Positions 5,219-64,000 of a stretch of 64,000 bases of DNA are shown one piece after another. Position 1 is the stretch's first letter; every line of letters begins with the position of its first letter. The stretch is from Verrucomicrobiota bacterium. Lineage in GTDB: Bacteria; Verrucomicrobiota; Verrucomicrobiia; Chthoniobacterales; UBA10450. Below the pieces are notes generated by a model that ran no database searches, was not told where the DNA came from, and was given only the letters and a program-made list of their open reading frames with translations. The stretch spans positions 1 to 64,000 of the forward strand of contig QHRD01000003.1 in NCBI GenBank assembly GCA_003220005.1. Direction: 5' to 3'. The position numbers and the translations under genes are program-made.

Positions 5219-6325
5219 ATGGCGGGCAAGCCGTTACATTTGGATGCCATGAACCTCGCCGGGGCTTTCGTAGCCAATTGCTTCTTTGCATTCATGCTCT
5301 TTAGTGCAGTCCCGAAAGCTTTCGGGACGCCCGCCCAAGAACCGGCTGCTGCGGAGACGCGCCCTGAAAATCAGCCAGACATGGAAACAAAAAAGATTGG
5401 ACTCGTTGTCCACGGCGGCGCCGGGACTATTGAGCGCAGCAAGATGACACCGGAAAAAGAGCGCGAATATCGCGCGGGACTCGAGCGCGCTCTGACAGCT
5501 GGTTACGAAACTTTAAAGCGCGGTGGTTCGAGCCTTGACGCTACGGAAGCGGCCGTGCGCGTGCTCGAAGACGATCCTCACTTCAATGCAGGACGTGGTT
5601 CCGTGTTCACAAGCGCCGGCACGAACGAGATGGACGCTTCAATTATGGACGGCAAAACGCTTAAAGCCGGAGCGGTCGCCAGTTTGAAACACGTGAAAAA
5701 TCCAATCGACCTGGCCCGACTGGTCATGGAGAAATCGCCGCACGTCATGCTCGATTGCGCGGGCGCAGAAGCTTTCGCGAAAGAAAATGGGATCGAGCTT
5801 GTCGATGAAAAATATTTTTTTACGCAGGAACGCTGGGACGCGTTGCAGAAAATCAAAGAAGCGGAAAAGCACGGTGGCGTCGGCGGCAAGCAGTTTTTCA
5901 TTTCGGAAGACGATCGCCACGGGACCGTCGGCGCTGTCGCATTGGATAGGAACGGAAATTTAGCCGCAGCAACTTCCACCGGCGGAATGGCAAACAAGTT
6001 ACCCGGGCGAATCGGCGACACGCCGGTCATCGGCGCCGGCACCTACGCGAACAATCAAACCTGCGCGGTGTCCTGCACCGGCGACGGCGAGTATTTTATT
6101 CGTGCCGGCGTGGCGCATGAGGTCTCGACGCTGATGGAATATCGCGGCATGAAATTGCAGGAAGCGGCGCAGACAGCTCTGGACGCGGTTAAGAAACTTG
6201 GTGGCAGCGGCGGTTTGATTGCCATCGACAAAAACGGCGCGGTAGCTTTGCCCTTTAACACAAACGGGATGTACCGCGGCTACGTCGATCCAAACGGCAA
6301 GTTTGTGATCCAGATCTACCGGTAG
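5219..6325 (+). CDS. Isoaspartyl peptidase/L-asparaginase (Ntn hydrolase family), likely secreted
   Basis: GLVVHGGAGTI, AGRGSVFTSAGTNEMDASIMDG and catalytic Thr context DDRHGTVGAVALD; hydrophobic N-terminus. Confidence 0.9.
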   Translation: MAGKPLHLDAMNLAGAFVANCFFAFMLFSAVPKAFGTPAQEPAAAETRPENQPDMETKKIGLVVHGGAGTIERSKMTPEKEREYRAGLERALTAGYETLKRGGSSLDATEAAVRVLEDDPHFNAGRGSVFTSAGTNEMDASIMDGKTLKAGAVASLKHVKNPIDLARLVMEKSPHVMLDCAGAEAFAKENGIELVDEKYFFTQERWDALQKIKEAEKHGGVGGKQFFISEDDRHGTVGAVALDRNGNLAAATSTGGMANKLPGRIGDTPVIGAGTYANNQTCAVSCTGDGEYFIRAGVAHEVSTLMEYRGMKLQEAAQTALDAVKKLGGSGGLIAIDKNGAVALPFNTNGMYRGYVDPNGKFVIQIYR

Positions 6326-6330
6326 AGAGT

Positions 6331-6428
6331 GTCATGTCGAGCCCTTCGACTTCGCTCGGGACAGGCTTCATCAAGATATCTCTTGCTGTTATAATTGGAG
6401 ATTCCTCGACTTCGCTCGGAATAACAAA
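6331..6428. repeat. Dispersed extragenic repeat (CGACTTCGCTCGG type), two sub-copies
   Basis: GTCGAGCCCTTCGACTTCGCTCGGGAC and GAGATTCCTCGACTTCGCTCGGAATAAC; same core recurs at 16147..16222 and 61093..61120. Confidence 0.7.
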
Positions 6429-13684: not shown

Positions 13685-13717
13685 TGTTTACATCCCGAAA
13701 AACATTCGGGATTCGAA

Positions 13718-13794: not shown

Positions 13795-16134
13795 CTACTC
13801 GCGCAATTCCGCGCCGAGGTCTCGCCGCAATCGCTCGCGAATTTTCGCGTGTGCCACGGTTACCTCCTCGTTTGTGAGTGTGCGACTTCGCTCTCTATAT
13901 GTCAATCGATATGCAAGCGACTTTCGCGCTGCGCCGATTTCGCCGCCGCTAAACAAATCGAACAGCTCGACGCCTTCCAAGAGCGGTTCGCGCGGTTCTT
14001 CGATGGCCCGCAAAATATTTTCGTGCGGAATTTCCTCGGGAACAATCATCGCAATATCGCGGGTGACAGCCGGAAATTTCTCGATCTCGCAAAACTTTGT
14101 CGCCAGTTCGTCGCGCATTAAAAGAAGGTCCGCGTGCACCTCCGCAACAAGCACCGTGCCAGGCGCATCAGATTTTGCGGCCGAGAGCTGTCCGCCAAAA
14201 CCGATCATTTGGTCGCCCGAGAAAACATCGACCGGTAGCGCGAGACCGGGAAATTTCCCGGGGCGAAATGAGAGACTCGGAACGACGCATTCCAACGCGC
14301 CCTTGAGATCGAATAGATCAAGACTGCGGCTTTGGGGGGATCGCCAATTTGGGGCGCTTGCAACATTTCCCCAGAGCAAAATTCCCAGATGCCGTTCTTC
14401 CTTACCGGATGGCGGAATAAAGGTGCGTCCGATTTCGAAAATGGCGACGCGTTCTGCGCTGGCGCGAATATTGCGATCGAGTACTTCTAACAATCCTACG
14501 AGAATGCTTGGGCGCAGCGCGACATGATCTTCGCTGAGCGGGTTCCGCAATTCGATAGCGCTTTCGCTGAACGCGAATCGTTCGCGTGCCAGTAGTTTTG
14601 AAGTCCGCACTTCATCGAGCCCGAGTGCTGCCAGGCGCTGACACCACGTCGATTCCAAATCATGCGCATGGTCGGCGATGCTCGCCGGCGTGAAACGGCT
14701 TCGATTTGTTCCCGCAATTTTGTCGGCTCCATAAGCGCGTACGACTTCTTCAACAAGATCGACATCGCGCTGCAGATCGCGGCGATAACTCGGAATCTTC
14801 CATTTTGCCGTTCTGGCCGCGCTCATTTTACGTAAACCAAATCCGCTCAGAACCTCGTCAACGGTTTTGGATTTGATCGTGACTCCGATTACGCGATCGC
14901 ATTTTTCGTAACTCAACGAAACGTCTGGAGGGTTCGCCGGAAGTTTGCCAGCGATGTTAATCTCCTTTGCCGGAGTTCCGCCTGCGATCTCGCGAATCAA
15001 TTCACTCGCGCGCGCTGATGCGCGTAACACCATTTCGGGATCTACTCCGCGTTCGAACCGATAACTCGCGTCGCTCGGCAGATTCAATTCGCGCGCAGTG
15101 CGCCGAATGCTCGCCGGCAAAAAGTAAGCGGCTTCCAGCAAAATGTTTTTCGTCGAGTCCGTTACCCCGGTTTCTTCGCCGCCCATCACGCCGCCGATCC
15201 CGACAGCGCATTCCTGATCGGCGACGACGCACATTTCCTTCTTTAGTGAGTAAGTTTTGCCATCGAGCGTTAGAAATTTTTCGCCGTCGCGTGCGAGCCT
15301 CACATTGATCGCGCCTTTCAGTTCGTCTGCATCGAACGCGTGCGTCGGCTGACCGAGCTCGAGCATCACGAAGTTTGAAATGTCCACGATATTGTTGATC
15401 GAACGAATACCGACATTCTCGATTTTCGCGCGCAACCACTGTGGACTTGGGGCGACTGTCACGTTGTCGATCCTGCGCGCGGAGAAAAATGGGCATTCAC
15501 GCGGCGCGGATATCGTCACACCCTTCTTTTGTAGGGCAGGCGCTCCGCCTGCCGGCAAGCGATGCGCTTGCCCTACATTTTTTTGATTCGTGAGCGCTGC
15601 AATCTCTCGCGCCAGCCCGAAATGACTCAGCAGATCACCGCGATTCGGCGTGATCTCGACATCGAGGATCGTGTCGCTTGGAAATAAATCTGAGATTGGC
15701 GTGCCGACTTTGGCATCTGGCGACAAAATCAACAGACCCGACGCATCTTCGCCGAGGCCGAGCTCGATTGGGCTGCAAAGCATTCCTTCCGATTCAATGC
15801 CGCGCAGTTTGCTTTTTCGAATTTCAGTTCCGTTTGGCAATTTTGCGCCCGGCAGCGCGAGCGGAACTTTGTCGCCGACTTTGTAATTGGTCGCACCGCA
15901 AACGATTTGCCGTTTTGTTCCACTGCCATCATCGGCTTCACAGACCGTCAGACGGTCCGCATTCGGATGACGCGATGACGCAGTGATCTGCGAAACGATC
16001 ACCCTCTCGAAGATCGCGCCGCGCGTCTCGATGTTCTCGGTCTCCACACCCGCGCGTGTCAGTAGCTCGGCGATCTCCTCCGGATTTTTTGGAAGCTCGA
16101 CGAACTCGCGCAGCCAGTTAACAGAGAATTTCAT
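13795..16134 (-). CDS. pheT: Phenylalanyl-tRNA synthetase beta subunit
   Basis: MKFSVNWLREFVELP start, tRNA-binding domain, VEITPNRGDLLSHFGLAREIA, DASYRFERGVDPE, C-terminal ferredoxin-fold anticodon-binding domain. Confidence 0.96.
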   Translation of the reverse strand: MKFSVNWLREFVELPKNPEEIAELLTRAGVETENIETRGAIFERVIVSQITASSRHPNADRLTVCEADDGSGTKRQIVCGATNYKVGDKVPLALPGAKLPNGTEIRKSKLRGIESEGMLCSPIELGLGEDASGLLILSPDAKVGTPISDLFPSDTILDVEITPNRGDLLSHFGLAREIAALTNQKNVGQAHRLPAGGAPALQKKGVTISAPRECPFFSARRIDNVTVAPSPQWLRAKIENVGIRSINNIVDISNFVMLELGQPTHAFDADELKGAINVRLARDGEKFLTLDGKTYSLKKEMCVVADQECAVGIGGVMGGEETGVTDSTKNILLEAAYFLPASIRRTARELNLPSDASYRFERGVDPEMVLRASARASELIREIAGGTPAKEINIAGKLPANPPDVSLSYEKCDRVIGVTIKSKTVDEVLSGFGLRKMSAARTAKWKIPSYRRDLQRDVDLVEEVVRAYGADKIAGTNRSRFTPASIADHAHDLESTWCQRLAALGLDEVRTSKLLARERFAFSESAIELRNPLSEDHVALRPSILVGLLEVLDRNIRASAERVAIFEIGRTFIPPSGKEERHLGILLWGNVASAPNWRSPQSRSLDLFDLKGALECVVPSLSFRPGKFPGLALPVDVFSGDQMIGFGGQLSAAKSDAPGTVLVAEVHADLLLMRDELATKFCEIEKFPAVTRDIAMIVPEEIPHENILRAIEEPREPLLEGVELFDLFSGGEIGAARKSLAYRLTYRERSRTLTNEEVTVAHAKIRERLRRDLGAELRE
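15530..15577. repeat. 48-bp double-hairpin palindromic element inserted in frame in pheT
   Basis: TGTAGGGCAGGCGctcCGCCTGCCGGCAAGCGatgCGCTTGCCCTACA: outer ends complementary, two internal hairpins; encodes roughly NVGQAHRLPAGGAPAL on the minus strand. Confidence 0.85.
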
Positions 16135-16146
16135 TTTCGCCTCAGT

Positions 16147-16222
16147 ATCATCTCGAGCGAAGTCGAGACACTTCTCGACAAAAGCATCCAGAGATTCCTC
16201 GAGTCGGGTCGGAATGACAAAG
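16147..16222. repeat. Dispersed extragenic repeat in the pheS-pheT spacer
   Basis: ATCATCTCGAGCGAAGTCGAGAC...GAGATTCCTCGAGTCGGGTCGGAATGACAA; shares core with 6331..6428 and 61093..61120. Confidence 0.7.
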
Positions 16223-17297: not shown

Positions 17298-17383
17298 CTG
17301 TAGCGGCGCTCTGTGAGCGCCGATGGCTAGATGGATGCTAGATGGATGCCAGCGGTTTCGGGGGTCACAGACCGCCGCTACAG
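17298..17383. repeat. Palindromic element with CTGTAGCGGCG...CGCCGCTACAG ends
   Basis: 11-bp perfect terminal inverted repeats, internal GGCGCTCtgtGAGCGCC hairpin, and a central 11-bp tandem repeat GCTAGATGGATx2. Confidence 0.8.
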
Positions 17384-25960: not shown

Positions 25961-28312
25961 TCAACGAGAGGCGGCAGCAGCACTTGGTTCCGTGGCAGTG
26001 CGAAGGGGCGTGTTGATCCGATAGCGAGCGATATCGCCTTCAAGAATATTGGCCAACGCCGAGTTCTGCCAGGCGTTCGCTAATTGAAGTCCTCTTTCGG
26101 CGGTTACTCTCGCCTCGGTGAATCGACCGTTCTCGGCATAGGCAGCGCCCAAAGTTCGTAAGATTGCTGGGTTCTTGTCGCCGGATAATTGATTCGCCCG
26201 TTTTGCCAATGACAGCGCCTGGTTTCCGTTTCGAATCCAAGTTTCTGGAAAAGTTGCCAGCACCCAGGCAAGATTATTCAAAGAATCAACCGAATCTGGC
26301 TCGGCGGCGAGCGCATTTTGCCAATGTGCAATTCCCTCGCTCGGGCGACCTTTTTGGAAAAGAGCAAGACCAATGTTGTTTTCTGCCGCCGGATACGCGG
26401 GCTGGCTTTTTAGCGCGTGTTCGTAGGCCGCGATCGCGTCGTCAACGCGGCCTTTTTGCAGCAAGTCATTCCCCAACAGGTAGTATGCCTCTGGATAGTT
26501 GGGCTGCTCTTGTACAGCTTCTCGATAATGGGTGATGGCTTCGTCTATTTGGCCATTCTGATCGAGCGCGATTCCCAAGTTGTAATGCGCAGCGGGATAA
26601 CGAGCCTGGATCGATAATGTTTTCTCGTACGCGGCGATTGCGTCCTGCGAGTCTCCTTTTTTCCATAGCGCGTTTCCCAGGTTGAACTGCGCCTGCGCGT
26701 CATTGGGATATTCCTTAAGATACGCTTGTAAATGGGTGATCACCTCGTCCGTGCGTCCTTTTTTTCTCAAAGCAAGAATGAGGTTGGTCTGTATGTCGGG
26801 ATAACCGGGAGCTATGTTGAGCGCCTTCTCAAATTGCTCGATCGCTTCGTCCAGGTGGCCGTGGTTAGCCAGGTAATCCCCGAGCCCGTCATGGGCCATA
26901 AAATTCCCCGAGGTCACGGCAAGGGCATGGCCCCAGAGCGACTCGCCGTTGCGCCAGTAGGAAGCCTGGATGTGAGCGCACCAAGCCAAAAGAATAATGG
27001 CAAGGCCTCCCGACAGGGCCAGAATCCCTTGGTAGGGACGGCGCGTTGCGCTCTCCGGACTCACCAGCGGAGCGTCCTTACCATGATGCGCCTTGCCGTC
27101 ACGACGTTTTGCCAACATCAACAAGGCGTCTGAGACGCCCCAGACAATCAGAATGCAAAAGCCGATCTGGGGCAAATAAGTGTATCGATCGGCATGCGCT
27201 TGTGATCCCACCTGAATCAATCCAATTACCGGAAGGAGCATGACCAGGTACCAAAACCAACCTGTGATTAGGTACGGCGATTTGTGCCGCACCGCGATTG
27301 CACCTGCGCTCACCAAGCCGAGCAGCACAATAGCCACACCAATTTCCCAAACCCGCAGTTGATCTCCTGGATGGGGATAAAAAACTGCCAGGTCCATCGG
27401 CCAAATCATTTGCTTCACGTAAATCACGCATGAGACGAGCCCGTTACCGATTCGCGAGACCAGAGGCAGTTGTTCGCCGCGGGCCAGACTTGAATGTTGT
27501 GCCCAGAGAGTAGCCAGTCCGTCGGCAACGGAGAGCGCTAACAGTGGAACTTTTTCAAGGACCAGTTGCCTGATTGATGATCGGCCGGTGAAACGGTTGA
27601 GTGGCCAATAGTCGAGCAGTAACAGGACGAAAGGCATGGTCACCAGCATTGATTTGGACAAGAGGCCGAGCGCGAACACGATCGACATCGTTAAGTAGCG
27701 GCCAATCGAGGGAGATTTGGCATAGCGGGCGTAAGCGGCGAGCGTGAGCATGAAGAATACGGCGCTCAGAACATCTTTGCGCTCGGAAATCCAGGCGACA
27801 GATTCGACCCGCAGTGGGTGGATCGCGAAAACCGCCGCCACGAAGGCGCTCCGCCAAACCGCGCCTGTCATTTGTTGTAATACGAGAAACAACAAGACGA
27901 CTGCGATGGTGTGGAGGACAACATTTGTAAAGTGATGACCGCCGGCGCGGACTCCCCACAGCTGGCAGTCGAGCATATGCGACAGAGTCGTCAGTGGATG
28001 CCAATTGGCCGATTGCGTGCCGGTGAATGCATGGGCGACACCGCTAATGGTTAATCCATGGGCGACGTTTGGATTCGCATAAACATACTCGTTGTCATCG
28101 TAGTTAACGAAGTCGTAGCGGGTGGTCTGGCCAAACGCCAGCCAGGTAATGACGACTAGGAAAAAACAGACGCCCAAAACCTGGCGGCGTGCGGATGACT
28201 TAGCCTGTGGTGAACCTACGGAAGCCATAATTCGCAGTCCGATAACCGAGCCGAAGCGCTTGGGCAAGGATTTGCCTGTCGAGGACAAAATCGTTGGTAG
28301 GCCAGCAGCCAC
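25961..28312 (-). CDS. Integral membrane TPR protein, TMTC-like, paralogue of the downstream gene
   Basis: YDFVNYDDNEYVYANPNVAHGLT, HPLTTLSHMLDCQLWG, HPLRVESVAWISERKDVLSAVFF, then TPR repeats. Confidence 0.85.
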   Translation of the reverse strand: MAAGLPTILSSTGKSLPKRFGSVIGLRIMASVGSPQAKSSARRQVLGVCFFLVVITWLAFGQTTRYDFVNYDDNEYVYANPNVAHGLTISGVAHAFTGTQSANWHPLTTLSHMLDCQLWGVRAGGHHFTNVVLHTIAVVLLFLVLQQMTGAVWRSAFVAAVFAIHPLRVESVAWISERKDVLSAVFFMLTLAAYARYAKSPSIGRYLTMSIVFALGLLSKSMLVTMPFVLLLLDYWPLNRFTGRSSIRQLVLEKVPLLALSVADGLATLWAQHSSLARGEQLPLVSRIGNGLVSCVIYVKQMIWPMDLAVFYPHPGDQLRVWEIGVAIVLLGLVSAGAIAVRHKSPYLITGWFWYLVMLLPVIGLIQVGSQAHADRYTYLPQIGFCILIVWGVSDALLMLAKRRDGKAHHGKDAPLVSPESATRRPYQGILALSGGLAIILLAWCAHIQASYWRNGESLWGHALAVTSGNFMAHDGLGDYLANHGHLDEAIEQFEKALNIAPGYPDIQTNLILALRKKGRTDEVITHLQAYLKEYPNDAQAQFNLGNALWKKGDSQDAIAAYEKTLSIQARYPAAHYNLGIALDQNGQIDEAITHYREAVQEQPNYPEAYYLLGNDLLQKGRVDDAIAAYEHALKSQPAYPAAENNIGLALFQKGRPSEGIAHWQNALAAEPDSVDSLNNLAWVLATFPETWIRNGNQALSLAKRANQLSGDKNPAILRTLGAAYAENGRFTEARVTAERGLQLANAWQNSALANILEGDIARYRINTPLRTATEPSAAAASR

Positions 28313-57362: not shown

Positions 57363-58025
57363 ATGCTTTACATCGTCGCTACACCGATTGGCAATCTGGG
57401 CGATATCACCTTGCGTGCGCTAGACGTACTGAAATCGGTCGATCTCATCGCTGCCGAAGATACGCGGCACTCAGGGATGTTACTCAAGCATTTCGGAATC
57501 AAAAAGCCTTTCATCAATTATCACGAGCATAATGAAGCAGCGCGCGCGGCGGAACTAGTGGAACGCCTCGCACGCGGCGAGAACGTCGCGCTGATTACAG
57601 ACGCCGGAACGCCGGGACTGTCCGACCCGGGGCTGCGCCTCATCCACGAATGCATTCAACGCGAAGTCCCGTTTACGATCATCCCCGGGCCATCGTCAAT
57701 CCTGACCGCGCTTATCGGTTCCGGATTTTCAACTGAGAAATTTTCCTTTCGGGGATTTCTTCCGGTCAAAAGCGGACAGCGCGAGCGCGAGTTGCGAGTA
57801 GCGGCTGATCGCGAGGAGACCGTAATCTTTTTCGAGTCGCCTTACCGACTAACTAAGACACTCGCCGCTTGCATTAATGTGATGCCGGACCGACAACTTT
57901 GCGTCGCGCGAGAGCTTACAAAAAAATTCGAGGAGTTCCGCCGCGGCACTGCCAGCGAGCTCCTCACGCATTACGAAGCCCATCCGCCGAAAGGCGAGAT
58001 CGTGCTCGTGATCTCGGAAAGGTAG
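57363..58025 (+). CDS. rsmI: 16S rRNA (cytidine-1402-2'-O)-methyltransferase
   Basis: MLYIVATPIGNLGDITLRALDVLKSVDLIAAEDTRHSGMLLKHFGI; ALITDAGTPGLSDPG; IIPGPSSILTALIGSG. Confidence 0.96.
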   Translation: MLYIVATPIGNLGDITLRALDVLKSVDLIAAEDTRHSGMLLKHFGIKKPFINYHEHNEAARAAELVERLARGENVALITDAGTPGLSDPGLRLIHECIQREVPFTIIPGPSSILTALIGSGFSTEKFSFRGFLPVKSGQRERELRVAADREETVIFFESPYRLTKTLAACINVMPDRQLCVARELTKKFEEFRRGTASELLTHYEAHPPKGEIVLVISER

Positions 58026-58072
58026 GGACGCCGCGCTGCGGCGTCCGGTCGGCGCAGCGCGCCGACCCTACC
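58021..58072. repeat. 52-bp double-hairpin palindromic element supplying the rsmI stop codon
   Basis: GGTAGGGACGCCGCgctGCGGCGTCCGGTCGGCGCagcGCGCCGACCCTACC; same architecture as 15530..15577. Confidence 0.85.
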
Positions 58073-61065: not shown

Positions 61066-61092
61066 CATCTCCACGCGCGCCTGCTACTTTGT

Positions 61093-61120
61093 TGTCATTC
61101 CGAGCGAAGTCGCGGAATCT
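61093..61120. repeat. Dispersed extragenic repeat adjacent to the gcvP stop codon
   Basis: TGTCATTCCGAGCGAAGTCGCGGAATCTC; shares core with 6331..6428 and 16147..16222. Confidence 0.7.
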
Positions 61121-64000
61121 CTAGGTATTTCCCTCTAATGCTTCCACTAGCGGGCAGGAGCAGAAGAGGTTTCGGTCGCCATGGACGTTGTCGATACGCG
61201 CCACGGCGGGCCAGAATTTGTGTTCGCGCGTCCAGGGTGCGGGGAAGGCTGCTTGTTCGCGCGTGTAGGGCCGCCCCCATTTGTCGGATGCGATTTGCCG
61301 CGCGGTGTGCGGCGCGTTTTTGAGCAAATTATTTTGTCGATCTTGTTTTCCGTCGACGATTGCTTCGATTTCGGCGCGGATTGCGATCATTGCGTCGCAA
61401 AAACGATCAAGTTCGTGTTTCGGTTCGCTCTCGGTCGGCTCAATCATCATCGTCCCCGCCACCGGCCAGGAGACCGTCGGCGCATGAAAGCCGTAATCCA
61501 TCAAACGCTTCGCTATGTCCTCGACTTCGATGCTCGCACCTTTCCACTGGCGCAGATCGATAATGCATTCGTGTGCCACGAGGCCGTGTTTGCCTTTGAA
61601 AAGAACTGGAAAGTACGGGTCGAGCCGTTTGGCGATGTAATTGGCGTTTAGAATTGCAACCTCGCTTGCTCGTTTCAATCCCTCCGCGCCCATCATTCGG
61701 ATGTACATCCAGGTGATGGTCAGGATGCTGGCACTGCCCCTGGGCGCAGCTGCGACATTGCCGCCTTTCCCCCCGCCATGACGATAATTTGACTCATTGC
61801 CATCTGGTGGAGACTTCCCGCGTTCGCCTTTGCCAAAGAGGATTCGGCCGGTCTCGGGATCGAGAATGAATTCGCGTGGAAGATATGGCGCCAGATGTTT
61901 CGCTACGCCGATTGGCCCCACGCCTGGCCCGCCGCCGCCGTGGGGAATGCAAAATGTTTTATGCAAATTCAAATGGCAAACGTCGGCGCCGTAATCGCCC
62001 GGACGACACAGACCGCATTGGGCGTTCATATTCGCGCCGTCCATGAAGACCTGGCCGTCATGCGCATGCACGATGTTACAGATTTCGCGGATCGTCGGTT
62101 CGAACACGCCATGTGTAGAAGGATAAGTCACCATCAACGCAGCTAGATCGCGCGCGTGTTCATCTGCTTTTGCACGCAGATCGGCAAGGTCGATGTCGCC
62201 ATCTTTCAAACACGCGACTGATACAACTTTGAATCCGGCCATGACCGCGCTGGCCGGATTGGTTCCGTGCGCCGAGGTGGGGATGAGGCACACGTTGCGA
62301 TGCACCTCACCGCGCGAAGCGTGATATTCGCGAACGGCGAGCAGACCCGCGAATTCACCCTGTGATCCAGCATTGGGCTGCAATGAGATTGCCGCGAATC
62401 CGGTGATTTCGGCCAGCCAGTCCTCAAGTTGCTGGCAAATTTCCATGTAGCCTGTCGTCTGTTCGCTGCGCGCGAACGGATGCAGTTTGGAAATCTCGGG
62501 CCACGAGATGGGAAACATTTCCGCAGTGGCATTGAGTTTCATTGTGCACGATCCCAGTGGGATCATCGAAGTCGTCAGCGAGAGATCCCGCGATTCGAGT
62601 TTCTTCAGATATCGCAGCATTTCTGTCTCGGTGTCGTGCGTGTTGAAAATCGGATGAGTCAGAAAGTCCGAAGTGCGGATTGCAAATGGTGGAACGCGTA
62701 GCGGTGGCTCGCCGAGATCGTCATCAGCGAAATCGCGCACCGCCGTGCCGCGAAAGACAGACATCAACAACTCGATGTCCCGGGGGGTTGTCGTTTCGTC
62801 GAATGAAATGCCGACTGCGCGCGGGCCAAGCGCGCGCAGATTGCAGTCCGCTTTCGCTGCGTGCTCCAGAATGACTTCGCTGGATTCAACTTCGACCCGC
62901 ACCGTGTCGAAAAAATTGTCGTGCGTGATCGTGCAGCCAAGCGCGCGCAGACCATCTGCAAGCTGGCTCGTTAGCCGGTGAACGCGCTCGGCGATGGCGC
63001 GCAATCCCTTCGGGCCGTGAAAAACCGCATACATCGACGCAATGACCGCGAGAAGAACCTGCGCCGTGCAAATGTTGCTGGTCGCTTTGTCGCGACGGAT
63101 GTGTTGCTCTCGCGTTTGTAATGCGAGGCGATACGCCGGATGTCCTTCAGCATCGTGTGACACGCCAACGAGCCGCCCTGGCATGTGACGCTTGAATTGG
63201 TCGCGCGTGGCGAAGTACGCAGCGTGCGGACCGCCGAACCCGAGCGGAACGCCAAAGCGTTGCGTGTTTCCAACTGCAACATCTGCGCCGAATTCTCGTG
63301 GCGGTTTCAATAAGGTCAGCGCCAGAATATCTGCTGCGACGACAACGAGCGCACCGGCATCGTGCGCTTGTTTAACGAAATCGGCGTAATCGTAAATTGC
63401 GCCATCGGTGGCCGGATACTGGACGAGTGCGCCAAAAACCGTTCTGTCGAATTTGAAACCCGAATAATCGCCGATTTTGATCTCAATACCGAGCGGCTTC
63501 GCGCGTGTTTGAACCACGGCAATTGTTTGTGGGTGACAATTATCGGCGACGAAAAAGGTTTTGCGATTTGGAACGACGGCGTGACAAAGCGTCATCGCTT
63601 CGGCGGCGGCCGTGGCTTCGTCCAGGAGTGAGGCGTTTGCGATGTCGAGCGCGGTCAGATCCACGATCATCTGCTGGAAATTGAGCAACGCTTCAAGACG
63701 GCCCTGCGCGATTTCGGCCTGGTAAGGCGTGTAGGCTGTGTACCAACCGGGATTTTCCAGAATATTTCGCTGGATGACCGGCGGCGTAATGCAGTCGAAG
63801 TAGCCGGCGCCAATGAATGAGCGCGCGATCTTATTTTTGCTTGCGATCGTTCGCAGTTCCGCGATCGCTTCGGTTTCCGATTTCGCCTCCGGCAATTTCA
63901 GTTGCCGACTAAGCCTGATATTTTTCGGAACGGTGGCGTCGATCAACGCCTCAAGATTTTCGAATCCTACCTCGCGCAACATTGCGCGAACTTCTTCTTC
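61121..64000 (-). CDS. gcvP: Glycine dehydrogenase (decarboxylating), P-protein; 5' end beyond the window edge
   Basis: [69 protein letters not shown]; reading frame open to the right edge ([19 protein letters not shown]). Confidence 0.97.

Follow-up and report, generated by a model that had tools for sequence, protein, structure and literature searches.

The window analysed here, a stretch of 64,000 nucleotides from a soil bacterium of the Verrucomicrobiota, carries on its minus strand the gene pheT, within whose codons lies a 48-bp palindromic element (Table 1). Its sequence order is TGTAG-GGCAGGCG-CTC-CGCCTGCC followed by GGCAAGCG-ATG-CGCTTGCC-CTACA, so that two abutting hairpins, each with a perfect 8-bp stem, are enclosed by complementary TGTAG and CTACA ends; the arrangement of complementary ends and two internal hairpins described in an earlier note on this DNA is indeed present. 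Folded as single-stranded DNA, the element forms a cloverleaf of -21.7 kcal/mol, whereas its dinucleotide shuffles average -9.9 kcal/mol (z -6.1) and none of 200 is equally stable. In both halves, an unpaired GTAG stands directly 5' of the short hairpin, as is characteristic of REPs, and the halves together form an inverted, head-out doublet of GTAG-tagged REPs at 15531-15576, that is, a REPIN. The extragenic location that is part of the REP name, although not exclusive, does not apply to this copy, which is in frame in pheT. An Rfam search of the window gave no matches.

Despite the element, the pheT ORF is unbroken. The element spans the third base of codon 186 through the second base of codon 202 and encodes (N)VGQAHRLPAGGAPAL(Q); it is in frame, as the earlier note had stated, but does not consist of exactly 16 whole codons. 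Its GTA-GGG reading frame is stop-free. When placed on the structure predicted by AlphaFold, the element falls in a low-confidence loop (pLDDT <50 at residues 189-196), between a helix ending at residue 181 and a strand starting at residue 206, and thus in a part of PheT predicted to be disordered. E. coli-type PheT has a linker of similar length at the corresponding place.

Table 1. Repeats of the window, their host gene, and enzymes with an in-frame RAYT domain
Feature	Location	Strand	Remarks
pheT, phenylalanyl-tRNA synthetase beta subunit	13795..16134	-	host gene, 779 aa
GTAG REP doublet (REPIN) in pheT	15530..15577	-	encodes residues 186-202
REP unit 1: GTAG + GGCAGGCG-CTC-CGCCTGCC hairpin	15531..15553	+	
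REP unit 2, inverted: GTAG + GGCAAGCG-CAT-CGCTTGCC hairpin	15554..15576	-	
Third REP doublet, GTAGCGGCGCTC type	17298..17383		82-nt form, long spacer; upstream side of pheS
Degenerate GGTAGGGACG-type doublet	27031..27082	-	in frame in ORF 25961-28312 (TPR protein), peptide GKDAPLVSPESATRRPY
Second REPIN, other subfamily (GGTAG-GGACGCCGC-GCT..)	58021..58072		outside gene interior
Palindrome CCCGAAAGCTTTCGGG	5309-5328; 13692-13712		also L075:3736-3811, L103:3446-3506, L149, L123
Second repeat family (TTGTCATTCCGAGCGAAGTCGAGGAATCTC)	6391-6427; 16190-16220; 61092-61128		
RecG with RAYT domain, source genome	G000:C222 = L006:133-2838 / L323:568-3273		
RecG with RAYT domain, seven further loci	L325-L331		
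CarB with RAYT domain	L324, L334-L336, L345-L348, L350		
MetH with RAYT domain	L338, L339, L342; L340, L344		two sites
AlaS with RAYT domain	L351		
ValS with RAYT domain	L343		
ClpB with RAYT domain	L337		
Probable RarA with RAYT domain	L333		named from sequence only
Probable Sua5/YrdC-like protein with RAYT domain	L349		named from sequence only

The second REPIN of the window shares the architecture of the pheT element, as had been proposed, though it belongs to another REP subfamily; ORF 57363-58025 takes its TAG stop codon from the GTAG of this REPIN. Two other kinds of repeat were observed. The palindrome CCCGAAAGCTTTCGGG, whose core CCGAAAGCTTTCGG occurs at 17 places in the source genome (reversed control, 0), is found at the tips of hairpins from three REP families and looks as if it had been inserted into the loops of other REP families. 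In relatives, members of the TTGTCATTCCGAGCGAAGTCGAGGAATCTC family occupy the PheT linker too, in the form of a CGTC-tagged doublet.

Our census of the source genome, whose assembly is approximately 82% complete, covered 848 kb fetched in pieces, partly contigs chosen for TGTAGGG matches; the genomes compared with it are nearly all draft metagenome assemblies. Since GTAG directly precedes 41 of the 304 perfect hairpins with stems of 8 or more and loops of 3-5, and the runner-up tetranucleotide only 8, the element is not a product of chance. By a looser rule, a hairpin follows GTAG at 134 of 3019 sites, against 42 of 8507 for GATG and 37 of 6223 for GTGA. The same 848 kb hold 25 head-out doublets, nearly all pairing two different stems. 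Same-stem doublets made up 1 of 17 among those listed, where about 32% would be expected; perhaps a long perfect palindrome is unstable. The type-A unit GTAGGGCANNCGNNNCGNNTGCC, the type found in pheT, has 21 copies in the source genome and occurs in 33 of 35 genomes of the genus, with the reversed-pattern control at 0 throughout; it is rare beyond the genus, where G030 (8 copies), G055 (3), G049 (1) and no other of the genomes searched contained it. Two variable stem positions are complementary in 55 of 60 type-A units among those listed (18.8 expected). The genus includes G006, whose PheT equals that of L128, an assembly of Ca. Udaeobacter.

Further copies inside coding sequences, which the earlier note had anticipated, were found in the source genome. 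Secure in-frame elements lie in Mfd (RID domain; residue 992), PurL, MutL, MnmA, a PMT_2-type protein and a DAO-family oxidoreductase; L039, L045, L068, L072 and L077, located near the N-terminus of stop-to-stop frames, may precede the true start and were not counted as secure. Palindromic DNA is accordingly translated in frame in the unrelated proteins PheT, Mfd, PurL, MutL and MnmA, as Rickettsia palindromic elements (RPEs) are. Elements in coding sequences nearly always use the frame GTA-GGN or GTA-GCN, and the GGTAGGGCGCG type of Mfd uses GGT-AGG. Two loops of Mfd and one of PurL carry changing REP types in most members of the genus and are empty in some members and in other families, so that all four REP-bearing loops tested, that of PheT included, show turnover of REP type. 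In the Mfd RID loop of L181 and L185, a CCTGAGCCTGTCCTGAGCGCAGTCGAAGG-type hairpin is nested in the stem of a GGTAGGGCGCGACC REP with the frame kept.

The orthologues of PheT reveal how the element relates to the linker. In the nearest relatives (L117, L118, L119 and L137; PheT 83-86% identical), the linker is non-palindromic and reads TGKKLKSTPREAKxxIKKTG (TGKKLKSTPREAKIAIKKTG); these closest orthologues lack both the peptide and the palindrome, none of them has the peptide without the palindromic DNA, and other copies of the element exist elsewhere. Compared with these relatives, the element stands where approximately 12 native linker residues were, at a net gain of 12 nt, so that the insertion of 16 codons into an otherwise unchanged linker is ruled out. 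Relative to the nearest empty linkers, residues have been replaced and no site has been split, and the comparison yields neither a clean empty site nor a target duplication. The earlier claim that the element adds a peptide to an essential enzyme needs correction, the net change being +4 aa; the element is of a known kind, replacement of a variable linker describes it better than addition of a peptide, and the re-occupation of the loop described below had not been foreseen.

Across the Chthoniobacterales, the PheT linker holds a variety of REPs, whose types were assigned by eye, with two assignment-free tests in agreement. The REP type of the pheT element is found in the linker of L120, L121, L131, L138-L140, L157, L159, L160, L163 and L013, GGTAGGG types with other stems in L134, L141 and L164, GTAGCTGCC types in L143, L148, L149 and L158, a CGTCATTCCGAGC..GGGATGACG repeat in L123, L124, L126, L152 and L169, and the GGAGCCGCGACG type in L142 and L145. 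Of 51 species, 24 have a linker with a perfect stem of at least 7 bp, compared with 2.3 expected from shuffles, and in 21 the linker, which makes up 5.4% of the gene, contains the strongest hairpin found anywhere in pheT. Sister species differ in linker type (L140/L141, L122/L123, L164 versus L142+L145, L163/L127 and L120/L136). When the linker was left out and a PheT tree built from the remainder (quick search, LG+G4), at least 22 type changes were needed, a count in which species are non-independent and some changes may be losses; for these reasons, we limit the firm claim to the observation that the PheT linker in this order hosts at least five unrelated REP families, which implies at least five arrivals. 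In pheT of G024 (L320, G024:C148), the whole linker is absent and the gene is out of frame there, through either an assembly error or a deletion.

REPs of this genus are associated with RAYT genes. Among 21 RAYT loci of the genus that were read, 18 have a GTAG REP no farther than 200 bp away, 12 of them on both sides, and all eight RAYTs tested passed the NCBIfam model NF047646, 'REP-associated tyrosine transposase'. Three of these eight (L293, L296 and L297, from relatives) have GTAGGGCAAGCG, GTAGGGCRGGCG and GTAGGGCAACCG units, the halves of the pheT element, on both sides. Matching RAYT flanks were also found for the in-gene REP types GTAGCCGGGATCGGTGATCCCGG, GTAGGGGAAGCTG and GTAGCGGCGGTC, and RAYTs of the genus carry the REP types met in PurL, MutL, MnmA and Mfd. 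The source genome has a REPtron of its own (L319), of the GGTAGGGCGCGACC type, which is another of the REP types met in coding sequences; a type-A RAYT was not found in this approximately 82% complete assembly, the best match being 33% identical and a RAYT of another REP type. L004 and L005 of the source genome, which are RAYT-like and one of which is truncated, have no GTAG REPs in their flanks. The first Y1_Tnp loci considered as RAYT evidence were mostly IS200-like and uninformative. The RAYT-like L285 and L288 are surrounded by GTGGATCG and CGATCCAC repeats in place of GTAG REPs.

With structure, copy number, genus-wide spread, RAYT flanks in relatives, in-frame position and type turnover at orthologous loops all observed, we consider it highly likely that the pheT element belongs, as a non-autonomous REPIN, to a known system and occupies an unusual site for which there are precedents, and that the linker is a repeated landing place. 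A RAYT would recognise the REPIN as single-stranded DNA, cut it at the GTAG foot and rejoin it elsewhere, and we infer that the pheT element is moved in this manner. One copy would have come to occupy part of the coding sequence for the flexible linker that joins the B1 region of PheT to the B3/B4 regions, where it could survive owing to the tolerance of nearly any in-frame peptide and the lack of stops in the GTA-GGG frame; the peptide itself is presumably neutral. In this genus, loops of this kind could be occupied repeatedly, one REP family being lost or overwritten and another succeeding it, such that the enzyme stays intact while the peptide changes.

The copy in the source genome may have transposed there directly or been acquired when pheT recombined with an element-bearing allele. 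The replacement of linker residues, together with a left flank (TN..) resembling REP-bearing alleles such as that of L120, is as compatible with recombination or long-standing inheritance as with a recent transposition. Homologous recombination with the REP-bearing pheT allele of a relative, in place of transposition in the source lineage, is possible, if somewhat doubtful. It would explain the exchange of approximately 12 native residues for the element and a left flank (ACGAATCAAAAAAATGTAG) that is nearer to that of the REP-bearing L120 (ACCAATAAAAAAATTGTAG) than to that of sister species (ACTGGAAAGAAACTC); however, windows of 60-480 nt around the element mostly match the native-linker sisters L117/L118/L119/L137 or no consistent donor, so that no clear donor emerged from these comparisons. 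We regard it as unlikely that the palindrome was ancestral in the linker and lost in the sisters, having long been kept, perhaps because an mRNA hairpin at this domain boundary was useful. Approximately 18 species of the group lack any palindrome, and unrelated REP families occupy many linkers, sisters included (L140/L141, L122/L123 and L164/L142+L145), although type A, with an identical left offset and T-N flank, does recur in distant clades (L120, L138, L139, L157 and L159) and a hairpin is retained in many species while its sequence changes. A required mRNA hairpin is not favoured, because many species are without one.

The resemblance to Rickettsia palindromic elements suggested by the earlier note is borne out in behaviour, with in-frame copies in several housekeeping genes. 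That the palindromes in many proteins constitute a new RPE-like coding family unlinked to RAYTs is nevertheless very improbable, given the GTAG feet, the REP-type hairpins and the RAYT genes flanked by identical units. An assembly artefact might be suspected in a metagenome-assembled genome, but independent assemblies from several projects contain comparable in-frame elements at the same codons of intact genes, and we give this explanation practically no weight.

The association between REPs and housekeeping genes extends to the transposase: Y1_Tnp matches within long ORFs turned out to represent RAYT domains encoded in frame with housekeeping enzymes. RecG of the source genome (902 aa) contains a RAYT at residues 422-562 (NF047646, 80.5 bits; cut-off 80); in six hosts that were scanned together, the RAYT match is clear yet under the curated cut-off (56-75 bits versus 80). 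Perfect hairpins lie on both sides of the insert, within the coding frame, in 20 of 23 cases (a raw count), and the ValS insert has an identical VGQASRLSP-type REP at both ends. The RecG insert retains the DHVH and tyrosine motifs, and its median dN/dS is about 0.12-0.17, against 0.06-0.07 in the host parts, at near-saturated dS; the insert is hence old, constrained and under purifying selection. We found no description of RAYTs in frame in other enzymes in text searches of open-access literature. We put forward tentatively, with confidence a little short of even, that in Ca. Udaeobacter and its relatives the REPIN/RAYT system may be a standing source of protein loops, with REPINs and complete REPtrons (REP - RAYT - REP) in frame in core enzymes and changing at the same loops from one species to another, and that the RAYT embedded in RecG, kept with its catalytic motifs, could represent a transposase sheltered by a housekeeping gene and able to serve REPINs such as that of pheT.

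Several features of this system have been reported previously. GTAG REPs likewise have a GTAG foot, a 5-13 bp stem and a short loop, form head-out heterodimers, occur in the PVC superphylum, encode 20-30 aa where intragenic, and supply stop codons through GTAG; published intragenic copies include those of the verrucomicrobium Opitutus terrae (Di Nocera et al. 2013, PMC3733652). Different REPs at about one site were described in a single report, for recB of two Xanthomonas species (PMC3733652), whereas here at least five REP families occupy one linker across an order, with turnover at four loops. The REPIN/RAYT system of Bertels and Rainey (2011, PMC3116915) shares the inverted REP doublet as a unit, RAYTs with matching REPs and compensated stem changes; unlike in that system, the units described here lie in the coding sequence of core genes, and a single genus harbours numerous subfamilies, of which several have a RAYT of their own. 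From tnpA_REP genes, REPs are known that lie in frame within coding sequence and leave the gene unbroken, and RAYTs within other enzymes are not among the cases described (PMC6006769); the host there is the transposase, whereas here the hosts are housekeeping enzymes, some of which hold whole RAYT domains. Like Rickettsia palindromic elements, the pheT element is palindromic DNA translated in frame in an essential protein, but it is GTAG-tagged and RAYT-linked, a distinction drawn from the tag and the RAYT flanks; according to Di Nocera et al., RPE-4 and RPE-6 correspond to REPs of another super-family, tagged by CGTC (PMC3733652). Two findings go beyond the literature examined: the filling of the same protein loops again and again throughout an order, and RAYT domains that lie in frame in other proteins.

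REPINs are usually regarded as extragenic repeats. In these bacteria, they have repeatedly supplied the material from which loops of essential proteins are made, and the series of orthologues in which a loop is empty, filled, or re-filled by another family makes tolerance, the route of replacement and the choice of frame directly testable. For the question why RAYTs persist although they do not transpose in the manner of insertion sequences, the embedded RAYT domains would be informative: a transposase in recG, carB or metH is not easily lost.
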